Made by a program: the position numbers and the translations under genes | NCBI GenBank assembly: GCA_002709155.1 | Contig: PAQA01000025.1 | Coordinates: 11,953 to 44,095 of the forward strand | DNA from: Rhodospirillaceae bacterium | Lineage (GTDB): Bacteria > Pseudomonadota > Alphaproteobacteria > Thalassobaculales > Thalassobaculaceae | Reading direction: 5' to 3' | Length of the DNA stretch: 32,143 bases | Part shown: piece after piece, positions 3,694 to 27,427 of the stretch | Layout: the number at the start of each line of letters is the position of its first letter | How positions within the stretch are numbered: position 1 is the first letter of the stretch | The notes under the pieces: model-generated | What the model was told of the DNA's origin: nothing | Databases searched by the model: none | The model's input: only the letters and a program-made list of their open reading frames with translations

Positions 3694-3727
3694 TGCCTTT
3701 TTGCTGAAAATTAATGGTATCATCACG

Positions 3728-4816
3728 ATGTCTGAAACGAAAACTCACCTGCGAAGAGGTTGGACGACAGGAGCATGTGCAACAGCAGCTGCTAAAGCCG
3801 CGTTTACTGCCTTAATTACGGGACGATTTCCAGATCCCGTTGAGATCACCTTGCCAAAGGGGCAAAGAGTTTCCTTCTCTCTGGCAAAAGAGCAGTTGAC
3901 TGAAACAAGCGCCATGGCCGCCGTTATAAAAGATGCTGGAGATGACCCTGACGTTACCCATGGGGCTCTAATAGTAGTTACTGTTTCAATTGATAAAAGT
4001 TCTTCAGTGATCAGTTTCCGATCAGGTAATGGAGTGGGTACTGTTACTAAAATTGGCTTGCCAATAGGCGTGGGTGAGCCAGCTATAAATCCGGTTCCAC
4101 GGGAAATGATCAAAAATGCGATTTTGGAGGTCGCAAAAGCCAATGGAAAGAAGGTCGGTGTCATTGTGGAGGTTTCTATCCCAGGGGGGGAAGAAATAGC
4201 ACAAAAAACATGGAACCCACGCCTTGGTATAGTTGGAGGCCTCTCCATTTTAGGCACAACTGGTGTCGTAATACCATTTTCATGTTCAGCATGGATCCAT
4301 TCAATACATCGCGGTATTGATGTCGCAAGAGCTGCTGACGTTCCCCACGTTGGAGCATGCACTGGGTCAATATCTGAAACAGCGGTTCGTCAAAAGTATG
4401 GACTTCCGGAGAGTTCAATTCTGGATATGGGAGATTTTGTGGGTGGTACCCTAAAGTATCTTAGAAGACATCCAATTCCGCGTGTAACAATAGGTGGTGG
4501 GTTCGGTAAAATTTCCAAACTAGGTCAAGGGCATTTGGATCTGCATTCTGGTCGAAGTCAAGTTGACTTGGGTTGGCTTGCAAAGCTGGCTGCATGTGCT
4601 TCTGCCAGTGACGAAGTTATAGATCAAATTTATGCTGCTAACACAGCGATGGAGGTACTGGGGATAGCATCCCAAAATAAATTACATTTAGCCGATCTCG
4701 TCGCTAATGAAGCAAGAGTAATTGCATTGGATGTACTTTCGAGGGCACCCGTCGCCGTGGAGGTTTTGATTTTTGATCGGTCAGGTCAGTTAGTGGGTGC
4801 TGCTAATGGCTGGTAA
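3728..4816 (+). CDS. cbiD: Cobalt-precorrin-5B (C1)-methyltransferase CbiD
   Basis: CbiD methylates C1 of the contracted corrin ring using S-adenosylmethionine in the oxygen-independent pathway. The N-terminal RRGWTTGACATAAAKAA motif (about residues 9-25 from this start) is the hallmark of the family. LDMGDFVGGTLKYLRRHP and VTIGGGFGKISKLGQGH further on are also CbiD-like. I chose the ATG at 3728 (362 residues); an in-frame TTG at 3701 would add nine residues with no better ribosome site. The gene follows the CoA-transferase by 34 bp and overlaps cobK by 11 bp. CbiD takes the place of CobF, which is not seen in the window. Confidence 0.94.
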   Translation: MSETKTHLRRGWTTGACATAAAKAAFTALITGRFPDPVEITLPKGQRVSFSLAKEQLTETSAMAAVIKDAGDDPDVTHGALIVVTVSIDKSSSVISFRSGNGVGTVTKIGLPIGVGEPAINPVPREMIKNAILEVAKANGKKVGVIVEVSIPGGEEIAQKTWNPRLGIVGGLSILGTTGVVIPFSCSAWIHSIHRGIDVARAADVPHVGACTGSISETAVRQKYGLPESSILDMGDFVGGTLKYLRRHPIPRVTIGGGFGKISKLGQGHLDLHSGRSQVDLGWLAKLAACASASDEVIDQIYAANTAMEVLGIASQNKLHLADLVANEARVIALDVLSRAPVAVEVLIFDRSGQLVGAANGW

Positions 4817-5570
4817 TGTCATATTAATCCTTGGTGGGACAAGAGAAGCCATAGAAATTGCTTGTGATCTGGAGCAAATAGAAAACACAACAGTTATAAC
4901 TTCCCTAGCAGGTGTGACCCGTTCTCCGCGGCTTCCAAAGGGAAAAGTGCGTTATGGTGGATTTGGAGGCAAAGACGGCCTTTTTGATTATTTAATTTGG
5001 GAAAAGATTACTTTAGTCATTGATGCCACTCACCCATTTGCAGAAAAAATCACAAAAAATGCGTACGAAGCTTCGAAAAGAGCAAATATTCCGTGCCTCC
5101 ACTTTTCTCGTAAACCATGGGAAAAAACGGCACAGGACAAATGGTATGAGGTTGAAAATTCTAAAGCTGCAGCATCAACTTTGACCCAAAAAGACTTTGA
5201 ATGTGTCAAAAATGTATTTCTGACTATTGGACGCCAAGATGTGAACTGTTTTTATTCAATAAACACAAAACAATTTTTTGTTAGAAGTATAGAACCCGTA
5301 AAAGAATTAGGCTGCTTTGAAAATATGAAATGGATACAAGGCCGAGGACCCTTTGCTTTTCAAGATGAGTACACTTTTTTTAAGGAACACAGCATAGATT
5401 GTTTGGTCGCCAAAAATAGTGGGGGTTATGCCAGCCATCCTAAAATAGACGTTGCACGGTTTATAGGAGTACCTGTCGTCCTAGTGCAACAGCCAAAGTC
5501 AATCAATATAAAACAAATATATGACAGGGAGTCGCTGACTGCATTTGTGTCACATCATCTTTCAGGATGA
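4806..5570 (+). CDS. cobK: Precorrin-6A reductase CobK/CbiJ
   Basis: A 254-residue protein of the CobK/CbiJ family, which reduces (cobalt-)precorrin-6A to 6B with a pyridine nucleotide. Visible family features are the N-terminal ILGGTREAIEIA motif, RYGGFGGKDGLFDYL, and VIDATHPFAEKITKNA near residues 75-90. The ATG at 4806 overlaps the end of cbiD by 11 bp; a GTG at 4797 is possible and would add three residues. It is the last gene of the caiB-cbiD-cobK unit and converges on cobM across 13 bp. The cobK and cbiJ proteins are homologous, so the sequence does not separate the cobalt-free from the cobalt-bound substrate. Confidence 0.93.
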   Translation: MAGNVILILGGTREAIEIACDLEQIENTTVITSLAGVTRSPRLPKGKVRYGGFGGKDGLFDYLIWEKITLVIDATHPFAEKITKNAYEASKRANIPCLHFSRKPWEKTAQDKWYEVENSKAAASTLTQKDFECVKNVFLTIGRQDVNCFYSINTKQFFVRSIEPVKELGCFENMKWIQGRGPFAFQDEYTFFKEHSIDCLVAKNSGGYASHPKIDVARFIGVPVVLVQQPKSINIKQIYDRESLTAFVSHHLSG

Positions 5571-5583
5571 TTAAATAATCGGG

Positions 5584-6345
5584 CTAGGTCTTTTTAATTC
5601 TCAATAAATGTGAGCGGCTCGCGTCGTAAAGAGCGCTATCTGGATAATTCTCTTCTTCGAGCGCTGGGCCAATCAGAATAAGTGCTGTTCGGGTAATTTT
5701 CTCCGATCTTACTTTTTCAAAAATGTTTGATAGAGTCCCGCGGATTATTTTTTGATCGGGCCAGGTTACTCGATAAATCACGGCCACTGGATAATCTGAC
5801 CCATGAATAGGTTCTAGTATTCTTCGAATATATCGCAGGTTGCGAATAGACAGATGAATAGCCAAAGTCGCTTTTGAACTTCCAAGGCTTTCCAACTCCT
5901 CCCCGAGTGGCATTTTGGATGATTTCATAGAGGTTCTTGTAAGAATTACACTCTGACTTACTTGCGGAAGTGTCAATTCTTGCCCCAACGCTGCTGCTGC
6001 AGCCGCAAATGCGGGAACCCCTGGTGTAATTTCAAAGTCGATATTTAATTTTTTTAACCTTCTGATCTGCTCGGCGATAGCTCCATAAAGTGAAGGGTCC
6101 CCAGAGTGAACGCGCGCGACATCTTCGCTTTCATTATTAGCAGTAACTATTATTTCAATGATTTCATCGAGGTTTAAAGGTGCTGTATCTATTATTTTTG
6201 CGTCTTTTGGAGCGGCTTTTAATACCTCTTTGGGAACTAACGAGCCAGCAAAAAGACAATACTTACATTGTTCTATGAGATTTCTTCCCCGAATGGTTAG
6301 TAAATCTGGGTCACCTGGGCCTGCCCCAATAAAATGAACGGTCAT
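5584..6345 (-). CDS. cobM: Precorrin-4 C11-methyltransferase CobM/CbiF
   Basis: A 253-residue SAM-dependent uroporphyrinogen-III-type methyltransferase. It opens with VHFIGAGPGDPDLLTIRG, has the ARVHSGDPSLYGAIAEQI loop near residues 97-114, and has ITPGVPAFAAAAAALG near 132-147. That set (FAGSLVP after the first helix, VHSGDPSLYG) matches CobM/CbiF, which methylates C11 of precorrin-4 or its cobalt form. It is the last gene of the minus-strand operon. Its ATG overlaps the stop of the cbiG-cobJ fusion by 4 bp (ATGA, 6342-6345), so translation is likely coupled. Confidence 0.94.
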   Translation of the reverse strand: MTVHFIGAGPGDPDLLTIRGRNLIEQCKYCLFAGSLVPKEVLKAAPKDAKIIDTAPLNLDEIIEIIVTANNESEDVARVHSGDPSLYGAIAEQIRRLKKLNIDFEITPGVPAFAAAAAALGQELTLPQVSQSVILTRTSMKSSKMPLGEELESLGSSKATLAIHLSIRNLRYIRRILEPIHGSDYPVAVIYRVTWPDQKIIRGTLSNIFEKVRSEKITRTALILIGPALEEENYPDSALYDASRSHLLRIKKT

Positions 6346-8129
6346 TTGGAATAAATTTCGTTAGGAGTTTTTTTTATCAAATAACCTCGCGGTGTGAACA
6401 CTCTGCCCCTAAAAGTCTTTGTTTGGGTACTGCCGACAATAACTATTGATAACATGTCGACACTATCGGGTTCGAAATCTTGAATATCCATTATCTCTAA
6501 TTTTTCCTCTGCCCGGCCTAGTGATCTACCAATGATAACTGGGGTTTGTGGTCCTCTTCCTTGTTTTATGATTTCTATTGTCTTGACCAACTGATTGCGC
6601 CGTCGTCCAGATGCGGGGTTGTATAAGGCTATAACAAAATCACTTTCGGTTGCTGCTTTGATTCTTTTTTCTATAACGCTCCATGGTGTGAGAAGATCTG
6701 AAAGTGATATTGCACAAAAGTCATGTCCAAGAGGGGCGCCGGCTTTTGCTGCACAAGCCTGAACCGCAGATATACCTGGGGAAACGATTATTTCTACCAA
6801 GTTCCAAGATGGCTTGTCAAAATCCTTTAGACAGTCAAATACCAAGCTTGCCATAGCATAGATGCCAGGATCACCAGATGAAATTAACCCAACCGTTCTA
6901 CCTTCAGCAGCGATATCTAGAGCCCTTAAAACTCGATCCCTTTCCTCACCCAGCTCATATGGGTGAAGCGTTTTTCCACTAGTCGCGTTCCCCAACAGAT
7001 CTAGATAGAGTTTGTAACCAACTAGATCGGACGTAACGCGCATCAACTCATTGGCTTCGGGTGTTAACCAACCCTGTTTCCCGGGGCCAGTGCCTATTAT
7101 GAATAATTTACCCCGTTCTAACCCAATTTTTTCTGGAAGTAATATGTTTGGTGCTTTTGCTATTGCACATGTGGCTCTTTTTGACTTTTCTTTTGGAACA
7201 ATTAATTCGCCATCAGGGCCTGCAGCAGCTAGAGCTGCTGCTTCTGCTACTCCGTGGCAACCGACCTCGTTAAAAACAATATTAGACGGGTTTAATAATC
7301 TCGGTGTTTCTAACTCGAGTGTAGCTGCATTAAAAAAGCGCAGAGGTTTCTCTAATATTAGCGATAGTTGTTGGAGTGCTTCCTCATCCATCTTAAGGTC
7401 TATTGAAACGATGATTGCCACGCTGTCGGGACATAGAGTGTGCTTGGATAAAGTCGTTTTAACCAGATTAAATACTTCCTCTGCTGTAGCATTTCGCTCG
7501 CAGCCTACACCAACGGCCAGACACTCTGGGCTATAGGTTAGTGATGATCCGTCGGGTGCAGTTTGTTTTTCCGTCACATTTATTGATAATTTACCATTGT
7601 TTGAAAATGGTAGAGATGTATTCTCCAGCCACGCAGGTCGGTTGGAAATCTTGATTGAAGCACCATTCAAAAGCTCGGCCATAAATTTTTTATAAACCCC
7701 ATAATGCTGAAGGTGCCAGCCCTTTGGAGGAGTATCTAAGGTAACGTTGAAATGAAGATCGCTAGCTGTAGTTATGGTCACTCTGCCGTCGATTAATTGT
7801 CCGATTTGGTCGGCTAATTCATTGGCTCCGGAATGCCCGCCTAATACCGGGATCACTGAGCTTCCATCTTCTGCGACCACTACCACAGGAGGATCGTATT
7901 CTTTTTTTGTAATTACTGGGGCTAGAAGACGAACGAGAATACCTAGTGCTCCTATGAAAATGATGGGCTCTTTATCAATAAATAATGATCTTAACTGATC
8001 TGGGTATTTTTCGATTAGAATATCACACTCTGCAAATTTGCCGCGCAAACTTGCTTCAAAGTGTACTGCGATTTTTCGAGCGATTTGCAAGCCGGATGAG
8101 GAAACTACGACGACGGCTGTCACAACCAT
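6342..8129 (-). CDS. cobJ: CbiG-CobJ fusion: cobalamin biosynthesis protein CbiG joined to precorrin-3B C17-methyltransferase
   Basis: A 595-residue two-part protein. Residues 1-335 are CbiG-like: FIGALGILVRLLAP (58-71), VIPVLGGHSGANELADQIG (92-110), then the C-terminal CbiG domain starting at LAVGVGCERNATAEEV (204-219). CbiG opens the delta-lactone of cobalt-precorrin-5A and releases acetaldehyde. Residues from about 340 are CobJ/CbiH: IIGTGPGKQGWLTPEA (344-359), GLISSGDPGIYAMAS (414-428), VSPGISAVQACAAKAGAPLG (449-468) and ALYNPASGRRRNQL (501-514). CobJ methylates C17 and drives ring contraction. Joining the two places successive-pathway enzymes on one chain; such fusions are known in other bacteria. 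The start overlaps cobI by 10 bp and the stop overlaps cobM by 4 bp. Confidence 0.93.
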   Translation of the reverse strand: MVVTAVVVVSSSGLQIARKIAVHFEASLRGKFAECDILIEKYPDQLRSLFIDKEPIIFIGALGILVRLLAPVITKKEYDPPVVVVAEDGSSVIPVLGGHSGANELADQIGQLIDGRVTITTASDLHFNVTLDTPPKGWHLQHYGVYKKFMAELLNGASIKISNRPAWLENTSLPFSNNGKLSINVTEKQTAPDGSSLTYSPECLAVGVGCERNATAEEVFNLVKTTLSKHTLCPDSVAIIVSIDLKMDEEALQQLSLILEKPLRFFNAATLELETPRLLNPSNIVFNEVGCHGVAEAAALAAAGPDGELIVPKEKSKRATCAIAKAPNILLPEKIGLERGKLFIIGTGPGKQGWLTPEANELMRVTSDLVGYKLYLDLLGNATSGKTLHPYELGEERDRVLRALDIAAEGRTVGLISSGDPGIYAMASLVFDCLKDFDKPSWNLVEIIVSPGISAVQACAAKAGAPLGHDFCAISLSDLLTPWSVIEKRIKAATESDFVIALYNPASGRRRNQLVKTIEIIKQGRGPQTPVIIGRSLGRAEEKLEIMDIQDFEPDSVDMLSIVIVGSTQTKTFRGRVFTPRGYLIKKTPNEIYSK

Positions 8130-8824
8130 GCCTTTTCTCGGGAATGAATCAAAATCATAGAAAAGTATGGGGTCGATTTTGCATCAACCTTTTCAATATC
8201 AATGATTTTCTGAGTTTGCATTGTAGCTCTCTCTATATATCGAGCGTTTTGGATCAGTCCATGTCTCTTTAAGAGCTCTTTTATTCGATTAAAATGGCGA
8301 CCAATTTTGATGATAGCAATGGAGTCGGCGGTTTTTATTTTTTCTTCAAGCTCAGAGTTATCGAGTGGCGCCGGCAGTATAATTAAAATATCGTTACGAG
8401 ATGCAAGTGGGGATTCTAGGGAAGCTGAACAAGCTGTCAACGATGATACACCCGGAATAACTTCGATCGAACATTCATTTTTTAAACGGCTGAATAGATA
8501 CATGAAGGAACCATAAAAGAATGGATCACCCTCACAAAGTACCGCAACAATTTTGCCATCCCGTACAGCCTTGGATATTTTTGCACTTGCCTTATCGTAG
8601 ACCTCAAACGCTGGAAAACGTTCGCTCACCATCGGCGTTTTGATGACAAGTTCCTTGGTCCCTGTTGGAAAATGCTTCGCCGCGATGGACCTTGCTAAAC
8701 TTGTTCCGACTTCGGGTGCAGGATAAACGATCAGATCGGCTTTTTTTAGGACCTTAAGTGCTTTTAAAGTTATTAGGTCCGGATCGCCGGGGCCCACCCC
8801 TACGCCATATATTTTCCCACTCAT
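8120..8824 (-). CDS. cobI: Precorrin-2 C20-methyltransferase CobI/CbiL
   Basis: From the ATG at 8824 the protein is 234 residues and begins MSGKIYGVGVGPGDPDLITL, the usual start of CobI/CbiL. VLCEGDPFFYGSFMYLFSRL and IEVIPGVSSLTACSA are further family motifs. A longer in-frame start at 8896 would add 24 residues lying entirely inside cobL, and it is rejected: the 8824 ATG has an AGGAAAG ribosome site about 7 bp upstream and overlaps the cobL stop as ATGA. The enzyme adds the C20 methyl group, the first step committed to the corrin branch. It lies between cobL and the cbiG-cobJ fusion in the operon. Confidence 0.93.
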   Translation of the reverse strand: MSGKIYGVGVGPGDPDLITLKALKVLKKADLIVYPAPEVGTSLARSIAAKHFPTGTKELVIKTPMVSERFPAFEVYDKASAKISKAVRDGKIVAVLCEGDPFFYGSFMYLFSRLKNECSIEVIPGVSSLTACSASLESPLASRNDILIILPAPLDNSELEEKIKTADSIAIIKIGRHFNRIKELLKRHGLIQNARYIERATMQTQKIIDIEKVDAKSTPYFSMILIHSREKAWL

Positions 8825-10068
8825 ATGATACTTTCCTGTAACATTTGGATTGGTTTCTTTACTTTCCATTGGGTGACTTGCATAGAAGGACGCCAAGCCT
8901 TTTTAGAACCAATTTTTTCCAAATTCGATATGCTGATTCTAGTTAAGTCTCCTCCGAGTTTTTTTTGATTTTTTAAGACTACTGCTTCACCCTCGGTAGT
9001 AACGACGTTTGCAACAAGACAGCCGCCTGCCTTAAGAAAATCCCAGCATTGCTTGACCATCCCCTTGCTAGTTATGCCACCTCCAATAAAAATAGCATCA
9101 GGGGTTGGTAGTGTGGAGAGTATTGACGGTGCCTTATCATTTATTATCTTTAAGGTGGGAGCTCCCAACTTGCATGAATTTTGTGTGATGTTTTTTGCCC
9201 TTTCCGGGTTTGCTTCAATAGCGATTGCTTGGCAGCGATGATCCATTCGCATCCACTCTATTCCAATTGAGCCTGAACCGGCACCTACATCCCACAACAG
9301 GGCGCCCGGAAATGGCTCCAAAGCCGATAACGTTGTGACACGAACCTCTTGCTTTGTTATTTGCCCATCGTGAATAAATATGCTGTCTTGTAATCCTGGG
9401 GCTCGCGACTTAATCGCGTCAATATCAGAGCAATTTAGATCCACAGCAATAGTGTTAAAGGCCGCCCCAGGATTGTGCTGCCATTTATAAGCAATATCAT
9501 AGAAGGATCTTTCTTTAGTTCCATTCATATGTTCGAAAACTTTTATGATGCTGCTACCGTAACCCCTATTGGTGAGGAATTTCGCTACTAGTGATGGTGT
9601 GTCGCCATCGTGTGACAAAATAATAAGCTTCCCTCTCGGTCGCAAAAAGGTTTCTAGGGTGGCTATTGACCGTCCGTGGAGGCTAATTAAATCTGTGTCG
9701 TTGTGTGACCATCCCATGCGGGCGCATGCCAAAGTAGAGGCCGATAATGAGGGAAAAATTTGCATTTCATTGATAGAAAAAATGCGAGTTAGGGTATTGC
9801 CTATTCCGAACGAAAGTGGATCTCCTGTTGCCAGTATGCAAGTTTTTTTGCCTCTGAATGTTTCTAGCTTTTTCACGAGACTATGAATCGGCGACGGCCA
9901 AAGTATCTTTTTTTGTTTGGAATTGGGTACCATTTCGAGTTGACGTTGCCCACCAATTATAAACTCTGCTGTTTCCAAGAGGCGTATGGCTCTAGGGGAT
10001 AATCCACCAAGTCCATCCTCTCCAATTCCTATTACACTTAACCATCGATTATTCTCAAAGTTATTCAT
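8821..10068 (-). CDS. cobL: Precorrin-6Y C5,15-methyltransferase CobL (CbiE-CbiT fusion)
   Basis: A 415-residue protein with two methyltransferase domains. The N-terminal CbiE part shows VIGIGEDGLGGLSPRAI (12-28), FIIGGQRQLE (36-45) and CILATGDPLSFGIG (77-90). The CbiT part shows LLWDVGAGSGSIGIEWMR (257-274), a classical SAM motif I, with AIAIEANPERAKN as motif II, and AIFIGGGITSKGM. CobL methylates C5 and C15 and decarboxylates the C12 acetate side chain, giving precorrin-8. The fused form is the one usual in alphaproteobacteria. The ATG overlaps the cobH stop by 4 bp, and its stop overlaps the cobI start by 4 bp. Confidence 0.95.
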   Translation of the reverse strand: MNNFENNRWLSVIGIGEDGLGGLSPRAIRLLETAEFIIGGQRQLEMVPNSKQKKILWPSPIHSLVKKLETFRGKKTCILATGDPLSFGIGNTLTRIFSINEMQIFPSLSASTLACARMGWSHNDTDLISLHGRSIATLETFLRPRGKLIILSHDGDTPSLVAKFLTNRGYGSSIIKVFEHMNGTKERSFYDIAYKWQHNPGAAFNTIAVDLNCSDIDAIKSRAPGLQDSIFIHDGQITKQEVRVTTLSALEPFPGALLWDVGAGSGSIGIEWMRMDHRCQAIAIEANPERAKNITQNSCKLGAPTLKIINDKAPSILSTLPTPDAIFIGGGITSKGMVKQCWDFLKAGGCLVANVVTTEGEAVVLKNQKKLGGDLTRISISNLEKIGSKKAWRPSMQVTQWKVKKPIQMLQESII

Positions 10069-10706
10069 TCTGTGTCCTGCTCGATGGATATTCTTATCAA
10101 AGCATTTAAGGCTGCTGCTGCTATGGCACTGCCGCCTCGACGACCCAATAACGTAATATGTGGTATTTTCAATGTTGTCTTAGCCAGCGCCTCCTTCGAC
10201 TCAGCAGCACCGACAAAACCAACAGGAAAGCCGAGAACCGCCGCGGGCATTGGAGCTCCAGACTCAATTTCTTCAATAATCCGGAACAACGCTGTAGGGG
10301 CGTTGCCGATAACAATTATTGCCCCAGCTTGATGTTCCCTCCATAGCGTTACTTGGGCAGCTGAGCGAGTAGTTTGTTCATTTTTGGCTATACTCAAAAC
10401 ACTGGGATGATTCAAAAAGCAGTGTGCCCTTAAATTACTGTCATTCGAGATGGAAATCCCGGATGTGACCATATTACAATCGCAGATTATTTTAGCGTTC
10501 CTAGATATTGCAGTAAGCACCTCCTTGATAACGGTTGGAGAAAATTTTAAATCGTTGCCTATTTCGGGCATCCCCGACGCATGGATTATTCTTATGGCAA
10601 CTTTCGCCTCTTCCGTGTCAAAGCGACTTAAATCCGCTTCTTTTTGAACTATTTCAAAGGATCGCTGATAAATTTCATTCGGATTTTTTATGTAATTTAA
10701 TGACAT
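10065..10706 (-). CDS. cobH: Precorrin-8X methylmutase CobH/CbiC
   Basis: A 213-residue protein of the CobH/CbiC family, which moves the C11 methyl group to C12 to give hydrogenobyrinic or cobyrinic acid. Motifs seen are RIIHASGMPEIGNDLKFSP (about 38-56, with the catalytic histidine in IHASGM), IICDCNMVTSGIS, and VLGFPVGFVGAAESKEAL, then LLGRRGGSAIAAAALNAL at the end. It is the first recognised gene of the minus-strand operon. Its ATG shares one base with the stop codon of a possible 30-codon upstream ORF (TAATG), and the AAGG upstream lies inside a small hairpin, which suggests control of translation of the whole operon. Confidence 0.95.
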   Translation of the reverse strand: MSLNYIKNPNEIYQRSFEIVQKEADLSRFDTEEAKVAIRIIHASGMPEIGNDLKFSPTVIKEVLTAISRNAKIICDCNMVTSGISISNDSNLRAHCFLNHPSVLSIAKNEQTTRSAAQVTLWREHQAGAIIVIGNAPTALFRIIEEIESGAPMPAAVLGFPVGFVGAAESKEALAKTTLKIPHITLLGRRGGSAIAAAALNALIRISIEQDTE

Positions 10707-10798
10707 TAAAGGCTTAACCTTTTGCGATTGTTTTGTCTTTTCTTCATTGTTGAGATTTTTTGATTACTTGCCGCTTCCAACCCGGTTTTAAAGGCCAT
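10706..10798 (-). CDS. Possible 30-residue leader ORF coupled to cobH
   Basis: An ATG at 10798 opens 30 codons (MAFKTGLEAASNQKI, then a lysine/arginine-rich tail KKRQNNRKR) and stops at TAA 10706-10708, whose last base is the first base of the cobH ATG. This TAATG arrangement is typical of coupled genes. No clear ribosome-binding site is seen: GGAG lies about 20 bp upstream. The reading frame stays open further back to a TAG, so a longer form from a TTG near 10861 is possible. The peptide resembles nothing I recognise. It may be a leader peptide or chance. Confidence 0.3.
   Translation of the reverse strand: MAFKTGLEAASNQKISTMKKRQNNRKRLSL
10708..10722 (-). promoter_or_regulatory. Hairpin covering the cobH Shine-Dalgarno-like AAGG
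   Basis: On the minus strand, AAAGG and CCTTT flank a five-base loop (TTAAG) directly before the cobH start codon. The 5' arm holds the only purine-rich ribosome-site candidate. If formed, the hairpin would hide it. The stem is short and A/U-rich, so its effect is uncertain. Confidence 0.35.
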
Positions 10799-10808
10799 GG
10801 GTTTGGGG

Positions 10809-10944
10809 CTATTGCCCACTCCTGTGGCGCGTAGAGATTGATATCCGATTGGATCTATCAACCGCTAGCTACTCGTCCGGTCGTCATGGCTCGCATGTCC
10901 CAACAAGATCTAGGTTTACGCTTTATGGCCAAGTTGGGCAATAG
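10809..10944. ncRNA. Candidate structured RNA in the cobH / SDR divergent gap
   Basis: CTATTGCCCA at 10809-10818 is perfectly complementary to TGGGCAATAG at 10935-10944. In register inside it, TGGC (10825-10828) pairs with GCCA (10928-10931), and GCGTA (10829-10833) pairs with TACGC (10917-10921). Inside that, TTGATA-TCC / GGA-(2-nt bulge)-TATCAA forms a 9-bp hairpin at 10838-10861 with a GATT loop. CC-TAG at 10862-10868 can pair with CTA-GG at 10910-10914. Together these make a closing helix and a three-way-junction-like fold. The strand is unclear. On the minus strand it would be the cobH leader. On the plus strand, G-U pairs extend some helices, and it could be a free small RNA or the leader of the SDR gene. 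I could not match it to a named family. A short mobile element with inverted ends is an alternative. Confidence 0.4.
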
Positions 10945-11024
10945 TGATAATAATTGTGTTTTTTAATGATTTTGAGATAAACACTATTCTAATCTGCACA
11001 AAGTAATAAAATAAGAGAATCTTG

Positions 11025-11948: not shown

Positions 11949-12587
11949 TTAAAACTCTATACCGGGCTGCGCTTTGAAACCAGATCTGAAAGGATGTTTA
12001 ATCATAGTCATTTCTGTAACTAAATCGGCTGCCTCAATCAGTTCCTCTTTGGCATTTCTCCCTGTAACGATAACATGAAGTTCGTTGCGCTTATTTTTAA
12101 GCGTCTTTAATACTTCATCGATTTGAAGATAGTCGTATCTCAATACTATATTTAATTCGTCCATTAACACCATTGAGTAGTTGGGATCGTTCATCATTGA
12201 CTTTGCTTGCGCCCATGCCGCCTCGGCGGCAGCAATATCTCTTCCCAAGTCTTGTGTGTCCCATGTAAAACCCTCACCCATCGTATGGATTGTAACTTGA
12301 TCAGGAAAGGCTTCGAGTACCTTTTTCTCTCCAGTCTCCCATTTGCCCTTGACGAATTGCACAACGCCAACACGCATCCCATGACCAATGCCGCGACAAA
12401 TCATACCAAAAGCGGCCGTCGATTTACCCTTACCCTTTCCAGTGTTTACAACTAAAAGCCCCCCTGTTTTAGTTTTAGTAGCCATTATTTTGTTTCGGGC
12501 GGCCTTTTTCTTAGCCATTTTCTCAGCGTGTCGTTCTGCTGTTTTTGACTGGCCTGTGTTGCTACTATTAGAATCTAGGTCAGACAT
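11949..12587 (-). CDS. cobO: Corrinoid adenosyltransferase CobO
   Basis: A 212-residue CobA/CobO-type ATP:cob(I)alamin adenosyltransferase, which attaches the 5'-deoxyadenosyl group to cob(I)yrinic acid a,c-diamide. The P-loop VNTGKGKGKSTAAFG is unmistakable, followed by GVVQFVKGKW. MVLMDELNIVLRYDYL is the Walker-B-like segment, and the C-terminus HPFRSGFKAQPGIEF is the standard end of the family. I chose the ATG at 12587 because GGAG sits about 8 bp upstream; starts at 12608 or 12599 would add a few residues. A lysine-rich N-terminal arm of about 35 residues precedes the core, as usual for the family. It is a single gene, separate from the main cob operon. Confidence 0.95.
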   Translation of the reverse strand: MSDLDSNSSNTGQSKTAERHAEKMAKKKAARNKIMATKTKTGGLLVVNTGKGKGKSTAAFGMICRGIGHGMRVGVVQFVKGKWETGEKKVLEAFPDQVTIHTMGEGFTWDTQDLGRDIAAAEAAWAQAKSMMNDPNYSMVLMDELNIVLRYDYLQIDEVLKTLKNKRNELHVIVTGRNAKEELIEAADLVTEMTMIKHPFRSGFKAQPGIEF

Positions 12588-12981
12588 TAAAGGCTCCATA
12601 AATTTCATTAAACTGCTCGTTGAGTACGGTAAATTCTATGCTACGTATAATATTCTCAAAGGTCAAAGTCGTTAGGTAGATTAATGCCATAGTACATAAC
12701 AGAGGGCTTTTAGCAGCTCGTTTTTAGTGCCGCCTGTTCCCCGTCAAGCGGGAAGTTTGAACTTGTTTTTGGAGAAAGTAATCATTTTGATTCAAGATCG
12801 TAGAAATAAAATCAAGGTCAAAGCGTGATTGTATTGAGTTTGTTGTAGTTTTTTCATTTTTTAAATAGGTATATCTATAGTTTTTGGGTATTTAGTAAAA
12901 AAATATTGGTAAAGTGATTCTTTGAAGGGTTTTTAAGCATCATATTGCCCGAGAGCTAGATGACTAAATAAGAGGGTTTTT
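12588..12981. other. 394-bp divergent gap (cobO / ribF)
   Basis: AT-rich, with no convincing ORF. At 12737-12754 a hairpin TTCCC(C)G-TCAAG-CGGGAA is visible; no T-run follows it directly, so it is not an obvious terminator. On the cobO side, TTGACC followed 17 bp later by TAGCAT (near 12631-12670, minus strand) could be a weak promoter. On the ribF side, AGAGGG at 12971-12976 is a good ribosome site 5 bp before the ATG. No cobalamin riboswitch or tRNA was recognised. Confidence 0.45.
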
Positions 12982-13942: not shown

Positions 13943-16747
13943 ATGACCATAGATTATAAAGACACAATTTTTCTCCCGAAGACGGATTTCCCAATGCGGG
14001 CAGGCCTCCCAAAAAAGGAACCTGAGATATTGGCGGAATGGGAGCGTATTGACCTTGAGAAAAGACTAAGAGAAGACCGAAAAGGAAAAGAAAAGTTTAT
14101 CCTGCATGATGGTCCACCATACGCCAATGGGCACCTTCATATGGGTCATGCTCTAAATAAAATACTTAAAGACGTGATTAACCGTTCTCAGCAAATGCTG
14201 GATAAAGATGCCAATTATGTGCCTGGTTGGGATTGCCACGGCTTGCCGATTGAATGGAAAATCGAAGAGGGATATCGGGAAAAAGGTCTTGATAAAGATA
14301 GTGTCCCTATAATTGAATTTCGTAAGCAATGTCGAGATTTTGCGGAAGAATGGATTAAGATACAGACTGCTGAATTTAAGCGACTTGGTGTAACTGGAAC
14401 TTGGGATAATCCATATACAACGATGACCTTTGCAGCTGAAGCTCAAATATCAAGAGAGATAGGGAAGTTTTTGATGAATGGTGGCCTATATAAAGGCGCC
14501 AAACCTGTACTGTGGTCGGTTGTGGAAAAGACAGCCCTAGCTGATGCGGAAGTTGAATACCATGATCATAAATCTACTACTATTTATGTACGTTTCCCAA
14601 TAGTTAGCAGTAATCAATCCATTCTCGAAGGGGCGTCTATAGTGATATGGACAACTACACCATGGACTATCCCTGGAAACCGGGCTGTTGCGTATGGAGA
14701 GCAATTTGACTACGGCGTCTATCAAGTTGAGGAAATAGATGAGGAAAGCACGGCGATTGTTGGCGAAAAACTTGTTATAGGTAGTGCGCTTGCGGAAGAG
14801 GTCGAGAAGGCCGCCAAAATAACAAAAATGCGACAGATTGGGTCTATAAAGGGAGCTGATTTTTCTGACGCAATATTATCACATCCCCTAAGAGGCTCTG
14901 GTTTTGATTTCAATGTGCCTATGTTGCCAGCCGATTTTGTCACATTGGAGCAGGGCAGTGGCTTTGTTCACATAGCTCCGGGAGCTGGTTCGGATGACTT
15001 CGAACTCGGCCTTGAACATGGACTAGAAGTTGTTACTAACGTTGATGACTCGGGAAAGTTTTATGACCATATTCCTCTAGTTGCGGGAATGGATGTTATC
15101 AAAGATAACTATCAGATAGCCATGATCGTTAAAGACGCTGGGGCACTAGTTGCTGTTGGCCGGTTAACACACAGCTATCCGCATTCTTGGAGATCCAAAG
15201 CTCCACTTATTTTCCGGACTACGCCTCAATGGTTTATTTCTATGGAGACTAACGACCTTCGCAAGTCAGCTTTGTCAGCACTAGATGACACACGGTTTAT
15301 TCCAGAACGTGGTCATACCAGATTGAAAACGATGATTGAACAGCGGCCCGATTGGTGTGTTTCCAGGCAAAGAGCGTGGGGCGTGCCAATCACAGTGTTT
15401 TTAGATAAAAGAACTGGTGAACCGTTAAGAGACCAATCTGTTATCGATAGAATTAGCTCTATTTTTGAAGAAGAGGGATCCGACGCCTGGTACATCAGCG
15501 ATCCGCAACGTTTTCTTGGAAATGACTATGATGCGAAAGATTTCGAACAAATTAAGGATATTATAGAAGTTTGGTTTGATAGTGGTTCATCTCACACCTT
15601 TGTTTTAGAGGCTCGTCCAGAATTGAAATGGCCAGCTTCACTGTATCTAGAGGGCTCTGATCAACATAGAGGTTGGTTCCACACTTCCTTGCTCCAATCT
15701 AGTGGGACGCGAGGTCGGGCCCCATTTGAGGCCGTTTTGACGCATGGGTTTGTTTTGGATGAGGCGGGTCGTAAAATGTCAAAGTCGATGGGAAATGTAA
15801 CTGCACCTCAGGATGTCATCGATAGGAGTGGAGCCGATATCTTGAGGCTCTGGGTTGTAGGATCGGACTATTCCGAAGACTTGCGCATCGGGCCGGAGAT
15901 TTTAAAAAGACAAGTGGATTTATATAGACGTCTAAGAAATACGCTAAGGTACGTATTAGGCAACTTAAATGATTTTAAAGAAAGCGAACGAGTGGATTTG
16001 GCTGATATGCCAGAGCTTGAACGTTGGGTTCTTCATAGATTATCGGAGTTAGACATCATTATTAGAGAGGGTGTAGATAACTTTGATTTTCATGCCCTAT
16101 TCCAACAATTACATAATTTCTGTGCAGTTGACCTATCCGCTTTCTATTTTGATATGAGAAAAGATGTTTTGTATTGTGATTCATCCGACTCTCTCAGACG
16201 CAGAGCAACGCGCACGGTACTAGATATTTTGTTCAATAGTTTGACGACCTGGCTTGCTCCTATTTTATGTTTTACTGCTGAAGAAGCATGGCAGGCCAGG
16301 GTTAAAAATTCGAAAGATTCAGTTCATCTAAAAACGTTTATGGAGATCCCAAAAGATTGGAACAATAAAAAATTGGCCCAGAAATGGGATTTGATTCGGG
16401 ATGTGAGAAAAGTAGTTACGGGCGCTTTGGAAATAGAAAGAGCTGAAAAAAGGATCGGATCATCTCTTCAGGCAAAACCAACCGTTTATTTAACATCTGA
16501 TGCTGTGGCTGCCCTGGAGGGATTAGATGCTGCTGATATTTTTATAACATCAGGCGTTACTCTCGTGGAATCAGAGCCCCCAGCAAATGCATTCAGGTTG
16601 GAGGAGGTCGCTGGCGTTGGCGTTGTCCAAGGTTCAGCTGATGGTACTAAATGCGAACGGTGTTGGAAAATACTGCCGGAGGTAGGAGCGAATAACGAAC
16701 CAGTCTGTGACAGGTGTGCAGATGCTCTTAAGCATAACGGCTCCTGA
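13943..16747 (+). CDS. ileS: Isoleucyl-tRNA synthetase
   Basis: A 934-residue class I synthetase of full length that charges tRNA-Ile. The HIGH motif is HMGH at residues 66-69 within HDGPPYANGHLHMGHAL. The KMSKS motif is intact at 611-615 (GRKMSKSMGN). The editing domain is present (TTTPWTIPGNRAVAY and the segment after). The C-terminus carries a zinc-binding pair of cysteine motifs, CERCWK and CDRCADAL, as in the bacterial-type enzyme. It lies 19 bp downstream of ribF and 5 bp upstream of lspA, so these are probably co-transcribed. Confidence 0.98.
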   Translation: MTIDYKDTIFLPKTDFPMRAGLPKKEPEILAEWERIDLEKRLREDRKGKEKFILHDGPPYANGHLHMGHALNKILKDVINRSQQMLDKDANYVPGWDCHGLPIEWKIEEGYREKGLDKDSVPIIEFRKQCRDFAEEWIKIQTAEFKRLGVTGTWDNPYTTMTFAAEAQISREIGKFLMNGGLYKGAKPVLWSVVEKTALADAEVEYHDHKSTTIYVRFPIVSSNQSILEGASIVIWTTTPWTIPGNRAVAYGEQFDYGVYQVEEIDEESTAIVGEKLVIGSALAEEVEKAAKITKMRQIGSIKGADFSDAILSHPLRGSGFDFNVPMLPADFVTLEQGSGFVHIAPGAGSDDFELGLEHGLEVVTNVDDSGKFYDHIPLVAGMDVIKDNYQIAMIVKDAGALVAVGRLTHSYPHSWRSKAPLIFRTTPQWFISMETNDLRKSALSALDDTRFIPERGHTRLKTMIEQRPDWCVSRQRAWGVPITVFLDKRTGEPLRDQSVIDRISSIFEEEGSDAWYISDPQRFLGNDYDAKDFEQIKDIIEVWFDSGSSHTFVLEARPELKWPASLYLEGSDQHRGWFHTSLLQSSGTRGRAPFEAVLTHGFVLDEAGRKMSKSMGNVTAPQDVIDRSGADILRLWVVGSDYSEDLRIGPEILKRQVDLYRRLRNTLRYVLGNLNDFKESERVDLADMPELERWVLHRLSELDIIIREGVDNFDFHALFQQLHNFCAVDLSAFYFDMRKDVLYCDSSDSLRRRATRTVLDILFNSLTTWLAPILCFTAEEAWQARVKNSKDSVHLKTFMEIPKDWNNKKLAQKWDLIRDVRKVVTGALEIERAEKRIGSSLQAKPTVYLTSDAVAALEGLDAADIFITSGVTLVESEPPANAFRLEEVAGVGVVQGSADGTKCERCWKILPEVGANNEPVCDRCADALKHNGS

Positions 16748-22174: not shown

Positions 22175-24214
22175 ATGAGCGAATCTACTGAAAAAACCAC
22201 CTTATCACTGGCTGAGGGTTTCGACACCGTTACAAAAAGTGAATGGATTGAGATGGTCGAGAAGGGCCTCAAGGAAGGCACCATTGAGGATATCTACAGC
22301 ACGTTAACATATGAGGGTTTTCCGTTAAATCCTATCTATTCTAGAGGAGATATAGAAGAATTCGGGGGATATGATAGCTACAAAAATGTTATGTCGAAGG
22401 TTCGTAATGAACTAAACAAAAATCCAAAAAATAATGGATGGGAAGTGCGGCAAACCTATTTTCATTCGGACCCCAGTGCAGTTAATGAAGATATCAAAAC
22501 TGATATCGCGGGCGGAGTGAATTCTCTTTTGCTGAGGGTAACCCATGACACAAATAGTTCAGACAATTCTGCTGCAATTATTAGCTCCATAGCTGACCTT
22601 GAAAAATTACTTGATGGGATTGATTGTGAAACCAATAAGGTAACGTTTGTTCCATATATGTCTGCCATTGTTGTAGCCAGTATGTTTGCTGCATTAATGC
22701 AAAAACGAGAAATAGATTTAAACAAAGTTTCGGGTAGCTTCGGTGGAGATCCAATTGGGATGCTAGCCAGTTTAGGTTTTTTAAAAGGTAATGTAGACGA
22801 GCACTTAAAAAAAATATCAGAATTGGCGGCGTGGAATATCCAAAATATGCCAGGGATAAGTGCTTTTAATGTTGATACAACAGCATATCATGGAGCAGGG
22901 GTAACTGAGACAGAAGACTTAGCTATTGCGATGTCGACAGCTGTTAATTATTTGCGTGTGATGGTATCCAATGGCTTGAGTGTCAATGAAGCTTTTAAGC
23001 AAATTAGCTTTACAATTTCCGTTGGAATGGATGTGTTCCAGGGTATCGCAAAATTGCGAGCCGCACGGTTTTTATGGTCAAGAATTTCAGAGGCTTGTGG
23101 TGTCAAAGAAAATATAGGACCGATGATCCTAAATGCGATGACAGCGTCTCGCACTTTGAGCAAGCGAGATGTAGCGGTAAATATGCTGCGTTCGACGAGT
23201 GCATGTTTTGCAGCGGGTCTTGGTGGAGCAAATAGTGTAACACTTTTCCCTCATACGAACTTGTTAGGCGTCGAGAGTGAAACAGCAAGACGGATTACCC
23301 GCAATACTCAAAATATTTTAATCAACGAGTCCTCTCTGGGTCGAGTGGTTGATCCAGGTGGAGGGTCGCATTATGTGGAGTACTTAACGAAAGAGCTCGC
23401 TGAGAGAAGTTGGCAGACTTTCCAGGGATTGGAGGCTAAGGGGGGGATATTGCAAGAATTGTTATCTGGACGAATTCAGGAGATGGCAGAGAAATCTTGG
23501 AAGAGTCGCAAGATAAATTTAGATAATAGAAATGAACCTCTGACTGGTGTATCTAGTTTTCCGAATTTAGATGAAGTCGTGGATGCACCAAGCAATACGG
23601 AAAAGCCAAAAATTGAGTGTAAATTGAATCCAGTTGTTGCAAACGACGTCAGTCTGGTAGGGCATGATTTCGTGTCTTTAATTAAAGCTGCGAGTGAAGG
23701 CGGCAGCCCGCAAAAATTGTCTGAGGTCTTTAGCAAGACAAAGACTGTATGCGACCCTCTCAAGAAACATAGATTGGGAGAAGCATATGAAAGGCTTAGA
23801 GATCAAAGTGATAGATGGCTTGAATTAAAAGGGTCTCGACCATTGGCGTTGATAATTTGTTTGGGGACGCAATCAGACTACACACCGCGTGTTAACTTTT
23901 CGAAGAACTACCTTGCTGCAGGGGGGATTGAGAGTTTTGAGCTAAACCCTGACCCTTTAAAATTAAAGGAATCTATTGACGAGTCGAACGGTGATTTAAC
24001 CGTGATCTGCTCCTCTGATAAAGTGTATTCAGAAGCTTTAGAGACTACGGTTAAAGTTTTGAAGTCTTGCGGAGCGGGAATGATCGTTTTGGCGAGTAAC
24101 CCAGGCGCAAAAGAAAAAATTTTAAGAGATCTAGGTGTGGATCTGTTTATTCACGCTAAAGATAATATGCTGGAAACATTATCAAAAATTGCTCAAAGAA
24201 TAGGGATGGGCTGA
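22175..24214 (+). CDS. mutA: Methylmalonyl-CoA mutase small subunit
   Basis: A 679-residue protein of the methylmalonyl-CoA mutase family, shorter than the large subunit. It shows LTYEGFPLNPIYSRGD near residues 46-61, and PHTNLLGVESETARRITRNTQN and VDPGGGSHYVEYLT (each below the large-subunit equivalents) in the barrel. At the C-terminus the cobalamin-domain region lacks the DxHxxG motif (SDKVYSEALETTVKVL and VLASNPGAKEKIL are seen instead), as expected for the non-catalytic subunit. It is followed by the large subunit after 3 bp. Together they interconvert (R)-methylmalonyl-CoA and succinyl-CoA. Confidence 0.95.
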   Translation: MSESTEKTTLSLAEGFDTVTKSEWIEMVEKGLKEGTIEDIYSTLTYEGFPLNPIYSRGDIEEFGGYDSYKNVMSKVRNELNKNPKNNGWEVRQTYFHSDPSAVNEDIKTDIAGGVNSLLLRVTHDTNSSDNSAAIISSIADLEKLLDGIDCETNKVTFVPYMSAIVVASMFAALMQKREIDLNKVSGSFGGDPIGMLASLGFLKGNVDEHLKKISELAAWNIQNMPGISAFNVDTTAYHGAGVTETEDLAIAMSTAVNYLRVMVSNGLSVNEAFKQISFTISVGMDVFQGIAKLRAARFLWSRISEACGVKENIGPMILNAMTASRTLSKRDVAVNMLRSTSACFAAGLGGANSVTLFPHTNLLGVESETARRITRNTQNILINESSLGRVVDPGGGSHYVEYLTKELAERSWQTFQGLEAKGGILQELLSGRIQEMAEKSWKSRKINLDNRNEPLTGVSSFPNLDEVVDAPSNTEKPKIECKLNPVVANDVSLVGHDFVSLIKAASEGGSPQKLSEVFSKTKTVCDPLKKHRLGEAYERLRDQSDRWLELKGSRPLALIICLGTQSDYTPRVNFSKNYLAAGGIESFELNPDPLKLKESIDESNGDLTVICSSDKVYSEALETTVKVLKSCGAGMIVLASNPGAKEKILRDLGVDLFIHAKDNMLETLSKIAQRIGMG

Positions 24215-24217
24215 GAA

Positions 24218-26386
24218 ATGAGTAAGATACCCGATTTTACAGCAATAGGTTTTACCGAAACCAACACTGACGTCGAAATGTTCAAAGAGGTAGATAGTTT
24301 CTTCAAAGATTGGCGAACACCTGAGGGTATAGACGTCAAACGCCTGTACTCGGAGGATGATACAGAGGAATTAGACTTTCTAGAGAGTTGGCCCGGATTC
24401 GCGCCTTTTACCCGTGGGCCGTACCCGTCCATGTATGTAACAAAACCTTGGACTATCAGGCAATATGCAGGATTTTCAACGGCTGAGGAATCAAATGCTT
24501 TCTATAGACGCAACCTTGCTGCGGGACAGAAGGGATTGTCTGTCGCTTTTGATTTAGCAACGCATCGTGGCTACGATTCTGATCACGCAAGAGTGAGTGG
24601 TGACGTGGGGATGGCTGGCGTTGCTATAGACTCAATACTCGATATGCGACAATTATTTGATGGTATACCCTTAGATCAGATGAGTGTTTCTATGACAATG
24701 AATGGAGCAGTGCTTCCAATCCTTGCTTTATTTGTAGTGGCGGCAGAAGAACAAGGAGTCAGTCAGGAAAAACTCTCAGGCACAATTCAAAATGATATTT
24801 TAAAAGAATTTATGGTGAGGAACACCTACATTTATCCCCCAAGTCCGTCGATGCGCATAATTTCAGATATATTTTCTTACACATCAAAACATATGCCTCG
24901 GTTTAATTCTATTAGTATATCAGGATATCATATGCAGGAAGCCGGTGCGACAGCAGATCTAGAACTCGCTTACACCATAGCAGATGGTATTGAGTATGTG
25001 CGAGCTGGGCTCGACTCCGGTATGCAAATTGATGATTTTGCGCCACGCCTTTCATTTTTTTGGGCGATCGGGATGAATTTCTTTATGGAAGTGGCAAAGA
25101 TGCGAGCAGCTCGCCTCCTATGGGCTAAAATGATGGCTCGTCATTCCCCAAAGGACCCGAGATCGTTATCACTGAGAACGCATTGCCAAACCAGTGGTTG
25201 GAGTCTCACTGCGCAGGATGTTTTTAACAATGTAACGCGCACCTGTGTTGAGGCTCTTGCGGCTACACATGGTCATACTCAGTCACTGCATACCAACGCC
25301 TTAGATGAGGCGTTAGCTTTGCCAACTGATTTTAGCGCACGGATAGCACGTAATACGCAGCTTTTCATTCAGCAGGAGACAGGAACATGCAACGTAATAG
25401 ATCCCTGGGGCGGCAGCTATTATGTGGAAAAACTCACGCATGATCTCGCCAAGAAAGCCTTGGAGCATATTGAGGAGATTGAGGGTCTTGGCGGTATGGC
25501 AAAAGCTATTGAAGCTGGCATCCCTAAAATGCGAATAGAAGAAGCGGCTGCCCGAACTCAGGCCCGTATAGATTCGGGTCGGCAAGTCATCGTTGGAGTA
25601 AATCGCCATAAATTAGAAGAAGAGGAGACCGTAGAGGTTTTAAAGGTTGATAATGCTGCGGTGCGCAAGCAACAGTTGGAGAAGCTCGATCGATTGCGCG
25701 CAGAACGAAACGAAAAAGAGGTGACCCAGCGACTCAACACTTTGACAAGTGCAGCCAAAACCGGGGAGGAGAATTTATTGGCACTGGCTATTGAAGCCGC
25801 TCGGGCAAAAGCAACAGTGGGAGAAATATCCTATGCGCTTGAAAAAGTATATGGCAGGCATGTGGCAGAAGTAAAAACCGTATCGGGTATTTACAGTAAC
25901 GAGGTTGGTATGGAAAATGAGACTGTTGAGGGCGTATTAAAGAGTGTGAGAGGTTTTCAAGTTTCTGAGGGGCGTAGACCAAGAATTCTTATAGCAAAAA
26001 TGGGTCAGGATGGTCACGATAGAGGGCAAAAAGTAATAGCCAGTGCTTTTGCCGATCTTGGTTTTGACGTCGATATAGGACCATTATTTCAAACTCCTGA
26101 GGAAGTGGCCAAGCAGGCAGTAGAGAACGATGTTCACATCATTGGGGCTAGTTCGTTAGCAGCTGGCCATTTAACGCTTGTTCCTGAACTGAGACAATCT
26201 CTGATGGCCCTGGGGCGTGGAGATATTATGATTGTTGTGGGAGGGGTTATTCCTGCTCAGGATTTTGAAGCCTTATACAAAGCTGGTGCAACAGCAATCT
26301 TTCCTCCTGGCACAATTATATCAGAGGCGGCTGACGATCTAATAATGAAATTGGGTATTCAATTAGGGCACTCCAATGGATCGTAA
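24218..26386 (+). CDS. mutB: Methylmalonyl-CoA mutase large (catalytic) subunit
   Basis: A 722-residue catalytic subunit, of the usual length. The substrate domain has [38 protein letters not shown] and [16 protein letters not shown], and [16 protein letters not shown] further on. The C-terminal cobalamin domain has [18 protein letters not shown], whose histidine is the lower cobalt ligand in the DxHxxG motif, and ends with [16 protein letters not shown] and IFPPGT. It needs adenosylcobalamin, made through cobO and the corrin genes at the other end of the window. Order mutA-mutB-meaB on one strand suggests an operon for propionyl-CoA use. Confidence 0.98.
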
Positions 26387-26434
26387 TAGTTCTCTTCAGA
26401 TGGATAATCGAAGAGTTAAGGATTAGTCTAAATA

Positions 26435-27427
26435 ATGGCCGCTAATAAACAACTGACAGAGACTGATTATGTGGAAGGGGTTATAAGTCAGGACCGTTCT
26501 ATCCTAGCGCGTGCAATAACTCTTGTAGAGAGTATTCATGTTGATCATCGTGGTTTAGCAGATTCGGTTTTAACTAAGCTTTTATCGCATGCGGGTAGGG
26601 CTCGTCGGGTTGGCATAACAGGTGTGCCAGGTGTTGGAAAAAGTACTTTCATTGAGACACTTGGTAAGCAGTTAACGTCGACAGGAGCCCGTGTTGCTGT
26701 TTTGGCGGTCGATCCTACTAGTTCTAGGACGGGTGGTTCTATTCTCGGCGATAAGACAAGAATGCAGGAACTTGCTCGTGATCCATCAGCATTCATTAGG
26801 CCATCCCCGACCTCGGGAACATTAGGGGGAGTGGCAAGAGCAACAAGAGAAAGTATGATTTTATGTGAAGCCGCTGGCTATGATATTATTTTGGTTGAAA
26901 CGGTGGGCGTGGGGCAATCAGAGACTACTGTTGCTGAAATGGTCGATTTTTTCCTCGCATTAATGCTTCCGGGAGCAGGCGATGAGCTACAAGGTATTAA
27001 AAAAGGCTTGCTAGAGATAGCTGATATGATCGTGGTTAATAAAGCTGATGGAAGCACAAAAAACGCGGCGGAGAGAGCGGCATCCGAGTATAGAAGGGCG
27101 TTACATATATTAAAACCTGCAAGTCCTACTTGGATGCCCCCGGCTCACACTTGTAGCGCTATTAGTGGTAATGGACTGGCTGATATTTGGAAAGATATAG
27201 AAAACCATAGAGAGTTGCTTAAAACATCGGGGGAATTTGATGAAAAACGAAAACAGCAGCGAGTTCGCTGGATGTGGTCTATGATACAAGATAGGCTCCT
27301 TCTTGAGATTGAAAAAAATAAGTCATTACAAAACATAGCTCGTGCTCTGGAGGCCCAAGTAATGGAGGATCAAATAACGCCTGGGTTGGCCGCATCAAAA
27401 GTTGTTGCTGCTATTAACGCTAATTAA
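26435..27427 (+). CDS. meaB: Methylmalonyl-CoA mutase-associated GTPase MeaB
   Basis: A 330-residue G3E-type GTPase of the MeaB/ArgK family. Walker A is GITGVPGVGKSTFIETLG (about 60-77), followed by VLAVDPTSSRTGGSILGDK, RPSPTSGTLGGVARATRE, the switch region VETVGVGQSETTVAEM and the guanine-specificity motif NKAD. MeaB protects the mutase and gates loading of intact adenosylcobalamin. It lies 48 bp after mutB and is followed by a PLP enzyme after 13 bp, which fits an operon. Confidence 0.96.
   Translation: MAANKQLTETDYVEGVISQDRSILARAITLVESIHVDHRGLADSVLTKLLSHAGRARRVGITGVPGVGKSTFIETLGKQLTSTGARVAVLAVDPTSSRTGGSILGDKTRMQELARDPSAFIRPSPTSGTLGGVARATRESMILCEAAGYDIILVETVGVGQSETTVAEMVDFFLALMLPGAGDELQGIKKGLLEIADMIVVNKADGSTKNAAERAASEYRRALHILKPASPTWMPPAHTCSAISGNGLADIWKDIENHRELLKTSGEFDEKRKQQRVRWMWSMIQDRLLLEIEKNKSLQNIARALEAQVMEDQITPGLAASKVVAAINAN

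Follow-up and report, generated by a model that had tools for sequence, protein, structure and literature searches.

What kind of element occupies the gap between a cobalamin (vitamin B12) biosynthesis operon and its SDR-type neighbor in a Rhodospirillaceae genome? The window analyzed here, a stretch of 32,143 nucleotides from contig PAQA01000025.1, carries on its minus strand the gene cobH (precorrin-8X methylmutase, 10065..10706; best NCBIfam matches below the curated cut-offs). Downstream of it lies a block of genes (5584..10068, same strand) named by their best NCBIfam matches, namely CbiE/CbiT (cobL, 8821-10068), cobI (8120-8896), a cbiG-cobJ fusion (6342-8129), and cobM (5584-6345). Further cobalamin genes are found on both sides: cbiD and a precorrin-6A reductase at 3701-5570 (+), and a cob(I)yrinic acid a,c-diamide adenosyltransferase at 11949-12608 (-), beyond the SDR-type gene. 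The window holds no tRNA or tmRNA.

An initial annotation, made from the letters alone, had described nested inverted repeats ahead of cobH and proposed a structured leader-like element. The check it suggested, in which homologous cobH upstream regions are compared for covariation and searched with covariance models, came out positive, and the structured leader on the cobH strand was borne out by conserved hairpins and covariation. We hold with high confidence that the region encodes a leader element of B12 genes, conserved and covarying across relatives and specific to one strand. Its architecture differs in part from the one first described, and its possible function is discussed in the last section.

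Anatomy of the leader element

The element lies on the minus strand, in the sense of cobH, and consists of two hairpins, H1 and H3, with a further hairpin (H2) in between in most relatives. By comparative pairing, H1 occupies 10880..10904 and reads GUUG-[GGA]-CAUG-loop-CAUG-[A]-CGAC, and H3 occupies 10838..10861 and reads UUGAU-[AG bulge]-AUCC-loop-GGAUAUCAA, all on the minus strand. The segment that joins them (10862..10879, -) takes the place of H2 and forms no standard H2 here. In 23 copies, or 24 with the distant copy in genome G130 discussed below, H1 is built as a five-pair stem, a GGA/A internal loop, and a short apical stem, and H3 as a five-pair stem, a two-nucleotide bulge, and a three-pair stem. 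The internal loop is GGA/A in 22 of the 23 sequences of alignment A5 (CGA in G008), and the bulge is AG in 20 of 23 (AA in G003, AU in G017, and AC in G008). H2 is clear in genera g2, g3, g5, g7, and g9, where its pairs have changed on both sides, partial in g6, and not formed in g1 (the window's own) and g8. The core thus defined measures 71-96 nt, mostly about 70-80 nt.

The case for this structure rests on comparison. Over 24 sequences, 71 cells of the alignment have changed on both sides of a pair, versus 20.9 +/- 3.7 in shuffles (0 of 500 reach the observed count) and 3-25 in slid controls; these counts are to be read knowing that the structure was drawn on the same sequences, that alignment A6 was fitted to it, and that kinship among the genomes inflates them. 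Pairing follows the same trend, with 89.0% of cells paired over the 24 sequences versus 77.2 +/- 0.9 in shuffles. The H1 helices pair in 96.5-100% of cells (23 and 24 sequences), with both-side changes such as GUUG/CAAC, GCCCG/CGGGC, and the replacement of CAUG/CAUG by CGUG/CACG; H3 pairs in about 97% of cells, and a U-A pair gives way to C-G or G-C with both sides changed. A statistic that counts further pair types over the 24 sequences gave no excess over shuffles (294 of 500).

Folding energies are less telling. On the minus strand, the region of the initial annotation folds with a z of -1.98 (11 of 200 shuffles fold as well), and its plus strand is unremarkable (z -0.19). For the core, folded one sequence at a time, the z values of the 24 copies average -1.8. 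The four g1 copies range from -0.57 to +0.11, and the window's own, at -0.57, folds no better than its shuffles. Given these weak values in g1, the support for the element is comparative, not thermodynamic. What stands above chance is the inner hairpins H1 and H3 as a pair, together with their place before cobalamin genes.

The outer architecture fared differently. The inverted repeat that had been taken to close the structure does exist, with CTATTGCCCA at 10809-10818 facing TGGGCAATAG at 10935-10944, and the caution that a single 10-bp repeat would not be rare was justified: the window contains eight perfect 10-mer inverted repeats at this spacing (some overlapping) versus 4.7 +/- 2.5 in 30 dinucleotide shuffles. 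Over ten relatives this closing helix, which was modeled in the first covariance model (R1) and partly in the second (R2), pairs in 77.0% of cells; the next weakest (columns 29-32/129-132) pairs in 82.5%, and the four hairpin helices in 90-100%. Of its ten pairs, the four g1 genomes form 10, 9, 9, and 7, and the three g8 genomes form 4, 4, and 5. The nested architecture closed by this helix was thus dropped: it is the least paired in relatives, no rarer than chance, and its 5' arm overlaps a likely -35 box.

This box (TTGCCC, 10936..10941, -) would belong to the promoter of the cobH operon, with a probable -10 box, TAAACC, at 10913..10918 (-) according to promoter-pair scoring. Transcription would be expected to start near 10907-10905. 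As the 5' arm of the closing helix resembles a -35 box, it is probably not part of the RNA, which would begin at or just before H1. The same box would account for the invariance of CTATTGC across g1 and g8, even though only four or five of the ten helix pairs form in g8. In 20 of the 24 copies, the best sigma70-like pair has TTGnnn as its -35 box, a spacing of 17-18 bp, and a -10 box ending 10-15 nt before the GGGAC of H1. In the other four this last distance differs: it is 3 nt in G002, for which the scan picked a different register, 45-46 nt in G018 and G009, and 30 nt in G130. The mean score over the 24 copies is 9.44 versus 8.39 +/- 0.11 for mononucleotide shuffles (0 of 200 reach it), where the scan takes the best pair in 90 nt upstream, its weights are approximate, and sister genomes are not independent. 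For the window's copy alone, 18% of its shuffles score equally, and the listing of a stricter promoter scan does not include the site.

On the 3' side of H3, inspection of the sequence reveals a possible local hairpin, GGGC-AAUA-GCCC (10806..10817, -), which is mutually exclusive with the closing helix described above. It is followed by a stem that the initial annotation had correctly noted, CCAA(A)CCC/GGGTTGG at 10808-10777 (-). Compared by eye in G000-G003 and seen in the predicted fold, it may surround the AUG of a small ORF and is a candidate expression platform. That ORF (30 aa, 10706..10798, -; its stop overlaps the cobH start as TAATG) had been counted as part of the element, and it is not maintained as a reading frame of its own: G003 lacks the ATG, and the frame of G001 continues into cobH.

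Distribution and gene neighborhood

When 61 genomes were searched at the DNA level, three congeners had clear homologs (identities of 95, 92, and 73%), and G011 had a partial homolog. cobH was located in 29 of the same genomes, and reading the regions upstream revealed the element in G020 and G027 as well. Model R1, made from a seven-sequence alignment, was run on the 36 genomes of the window's family and matched ten, three of them new and located in genus g7 before a cbiX-cobH operon. With model R2, built from those ten copies, the number of matched genomes rose to 23 of the 36 (E<=0.05), 13 of them not found before. Three of the 23 cover part of the model at E 0.0036-0.0069, and it is their location that vouches for them; a match in G028 (E 0.549) was dropped.

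Both models search whole genomes without knowledge of the genes, and the matches fall at one kind of place. In all 22 family genomes with an element and a known cobH position, the element lies upstream of cobH on the same strand. Six of these (g1 and g8) have it directly before the gene, 97-110 nt from the cobH match, as in the window; in the other sixteen it lies 1074-1412 nt before the cobH match, ahead of cbiX-cobH. A gene with the CGHGSR motif (CbiX-type) starts between element and cobH in these sixteen, and Pfam recognized CbiX in all three of the intervening genes that were tested. The 23rd genome, G002, has its element at a contig end. Seen from the other side, the element occurs in 22 of the 24 family genomes with a cobH match and in 1 of the 12 without (G002). 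Many family genomes are incomplete, so absences weigh less than presences. In the two exceptions that have cobH and no element, G013 and G022, a canonical Cobalamin riboswitch lies on the cobH strand, about 6 kb upstream of the gene.

As a side observation, the CbiX-type proteins (e.g., L102 1667-2761) have by eye a histidine-rich C-terminal part, with a weak, sub-cut-off Zip match in Pfam, which suggests metal binding.

Beyond the family, model R3, built from all 23 cores, matched 3 of 385 genomes of the class (G000, the window's own; G005; and G130) and 2 of 398 genomes of the phylum (G000 and G005), and R1 matched 1 of the 385, again the window's own; these searches used stricter filters, with which weak matches are lost. 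Of the 29 genomes with a cobH match, five (G036, G042, G050, G051, and G057) fall outside the family, and R3 gave no match in the sequence around their cobH.

G130 belongs to another order, and its copy (E 2e-5) is the sole one outside the family and the sole one independent of R3. Its family and order comprise two genomes in the set, one of them positive. The gene that begins at this element encodes a TonB-dependent receptor, for which NCBIfam gives the vitamin B12 receptor as the best match (312 bits vs a curated cut-off of 599.7); its ORF opens with an ATG (L126 1569) that falls within the 3' strand of H3. The next gene encodes a FecCD permease with BtuC as its best match (198 bits vs a curated cut-off of 334). 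The uptake context comes from one genome, and the link to uptake is therefore suggestive. The proposed connection with cobalamin genes has thus held up: the element precedes cobH, cbiX-cobH, and once btuB- and btuC-like genes.

The initial annotation had also entertained a small RNA or a short mobile element. The fixed place before one operon speaks against a small free-standing RNA. A mobile element is at odds with one match per genome, located before B12 genes wherever the neighbor is visible, and with the single copy in the window's own genome. Phage sequences gave no match to the element. Plasmids gave three short ones (E 0.02 to 0.7, 28-38% of the query) and, for a second query, none, and viral contigs contained 46 H1-like and 31 H3-like stretches; none of these 77 holds a credible element, the best model E being 0.078.

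Relation to known RNA families

The window as a whole contains no Rfam 15 family at its gathering score. At the element's region, the weak matches are three snoRNA or miRNA hits (E 2.1 to 7.8), and such matches, like other Rfam matches at E 1 to 10 and far under their gathering scores, were set aside as chance. Scanning the whole library over 21 of the 24 copies (all except G016, G029, and G032) gave no family at the element, including the AdoCbl-variant RF01689; in these scans the Cobalamin riboswitch (RF00174) appeared only at two places other than the element. When RF00174 was searched at E<=0.001 in the 36 whole family genomes, 29 were matched, none of them at the 23 element copies. It was likewise absent at the element up to E 10 or 5 where this was tried, and from the 19 kb around the G130 element. 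The claim that the element is not a canonical cobalamin riboswitch thus stands.

B12 riboswitches usually target B12 synthesis and uptake genes, and to our knowledge all B12 RNA sensors known so far share one architecture. The element resembles RF00174 in being a leader before cobalamin biosynthesis and btuB-type uptake genes, perhaps with translational control. The canonical riboswitch has a four-way junction with an L4-L6 T-loop contact and an L5-L13 kissing loop (PMC10907184, PMC9600662). In contrast, the element, judged by the consensus of its 23-24 copies, is a row of consecutive hairpins without a four-way junction, and the nucleotides it conserves are different ones. The AdoCbl-variant, listed as 'Marine' (PMC2864571), shares the B12 context and the marine setting, and it gave no match in the 21 of 24 copies scanned. 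A more general type is formed by riboswitches with an aptamer that overlaps the start codon or the ribosome-binding site. G130, with its start codon in the 3' strand of H3, is similar in this respect; particular families of this type were compared through the Rfam scans.

Among the titles and abstract openings returned by literature searches, none names such a motif, and a description in supplementary files or in further papers is possible. The main texts of PMC8632094, PMC11109978, and PMC6429828 contain no mention of cobalamin, cbiX, cobH, btuB, or B12. We would therefore class the element with the cis-regulatory leader RNAs, as a new candidate family separate from RF00174.

Both kinds of leader occur side by side. 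A canonical Cobalamin riboswitch is present in 20 of the 23 element-bearing family genomes (not in G001, G012, and G021). For example, the window's own genome has one (L078 G000:C59:17467-17666, -) before a gene that by eye is of the cobW type, and in G024 (L114) the element (1276-1370) and a canonical riboswitch (14322-14535), both on the minus strand, lie about 13 kb apart.

A possible function in B12 gene control

The element is probably a riboswitch if all ligands are counted, and a cobamide is our best guess for the ligand. Ligand, direction of control, and mechanism are what we infer from the observations above: we lean slightly toward a cis-acting leader RNA that acts as a compact cobamide riboswitch and represses translation of B12 genes. 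The leader RNA would lie at or near the 5' end of the cobalamin-gene message, with H1 and H3 as its core. Abundant cobamide (a cofactor of the vitamin B12 type) would stabilize the core and block translation of the first gene, either through a hairpin that forms further downstream over the ribosome-binding site or, for the btuB-like gene of G130, through the position of the start codon within H3.

Several leaders have a predicted hairpin over the ribosome-binding site. Pairing of this site over 22 leaders is 0.72 versus 0.64 +/- 0.04 in shuffles (2% of 150 reach it), and over the 16 cbiX leaders it is 0.71 versus 0.63 +/- 0.05 (5% reach it), with single leaders often not above their shuffles. 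The excess is small, and translational repression is thus something we infer and that is easiest to picture in G130. The window's leader has no terminator-like site. By eye, the downstream part of the cbiX leaders (e.g., L061 after 1630 and L093 after 1599) often contains a stretch of the GCGUG type that is similar to the 3' strand of H1 and could pair with the H1 5' arm instead, giving an alternative fold.

With a canonical Cobalamin riboswitch already present in 20 of the 23 genomes, the need for a second B12 sensor is not obvious. This coexistence would also fit a division of labor in which the element is a riboswitch for another signal of the pathway, i.e., a corrin intermediate, cobalt, or SAM/SAH. 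The operon contains several SAM-dependent methyltransferases, and a CbiX-type chelatase is the first gene in 16 family genomes. We nonetheless consider such a ligand unlikely, as the btuB- and btuC-like genes of G130 are easier to reconcile with a cobamide than with SAM or an intermediate. Somewhat less likely still is a leader bound by a regulatory RNA-binding protein instead of a small molecule. Small hairpins with a near-invariant internal loop and bulge are typical of protein sites too, whereas this core is found in two orders ahead of different genes, and we know of no candidate protein regulator. That the dyads are read in DNA, as an operator for a transcription factor, is very improbable: the element does lie just 3' of the predicted promoter, where repressors bind, but its separate helices keep pairing as the letters change, and a DNA site would be expected to keep its letters. 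A strongly diverged canonical Cobalamin riboswitch is scarcely credible despite the downstream genes being of the same kind, since RF00174 finds strong matches elsewhere in the 36 family genomes and none at the element or at G130.

Returning to the cobamide riboswitch, we suggest more tentatively that the element could represent a new compact class of B12-sensing riboswitch, with a fold unrelated to the known one, situated at the 5' end of the message and controlling a different part of the pathway beside the canonical riboswitches. If so, a second and much smaller RNA fold would offer an independent way of sensing one of biology's largest cofactors, and its small size would make it convenient for studies of binding and structure. 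Annotation based on RF00174 alone would then partly miss the control of B12 genes in this family, including in uncultivated SAR116-type Alphaproteobacteria.

Elsewhere in the window, at 22175-27427 (+), two large ORFs resemble by eye the subunits of methylmalonyl-CoA mutase, a B12-dependent enzyme, and a smaller ORF resembles its G-protein chaperone.
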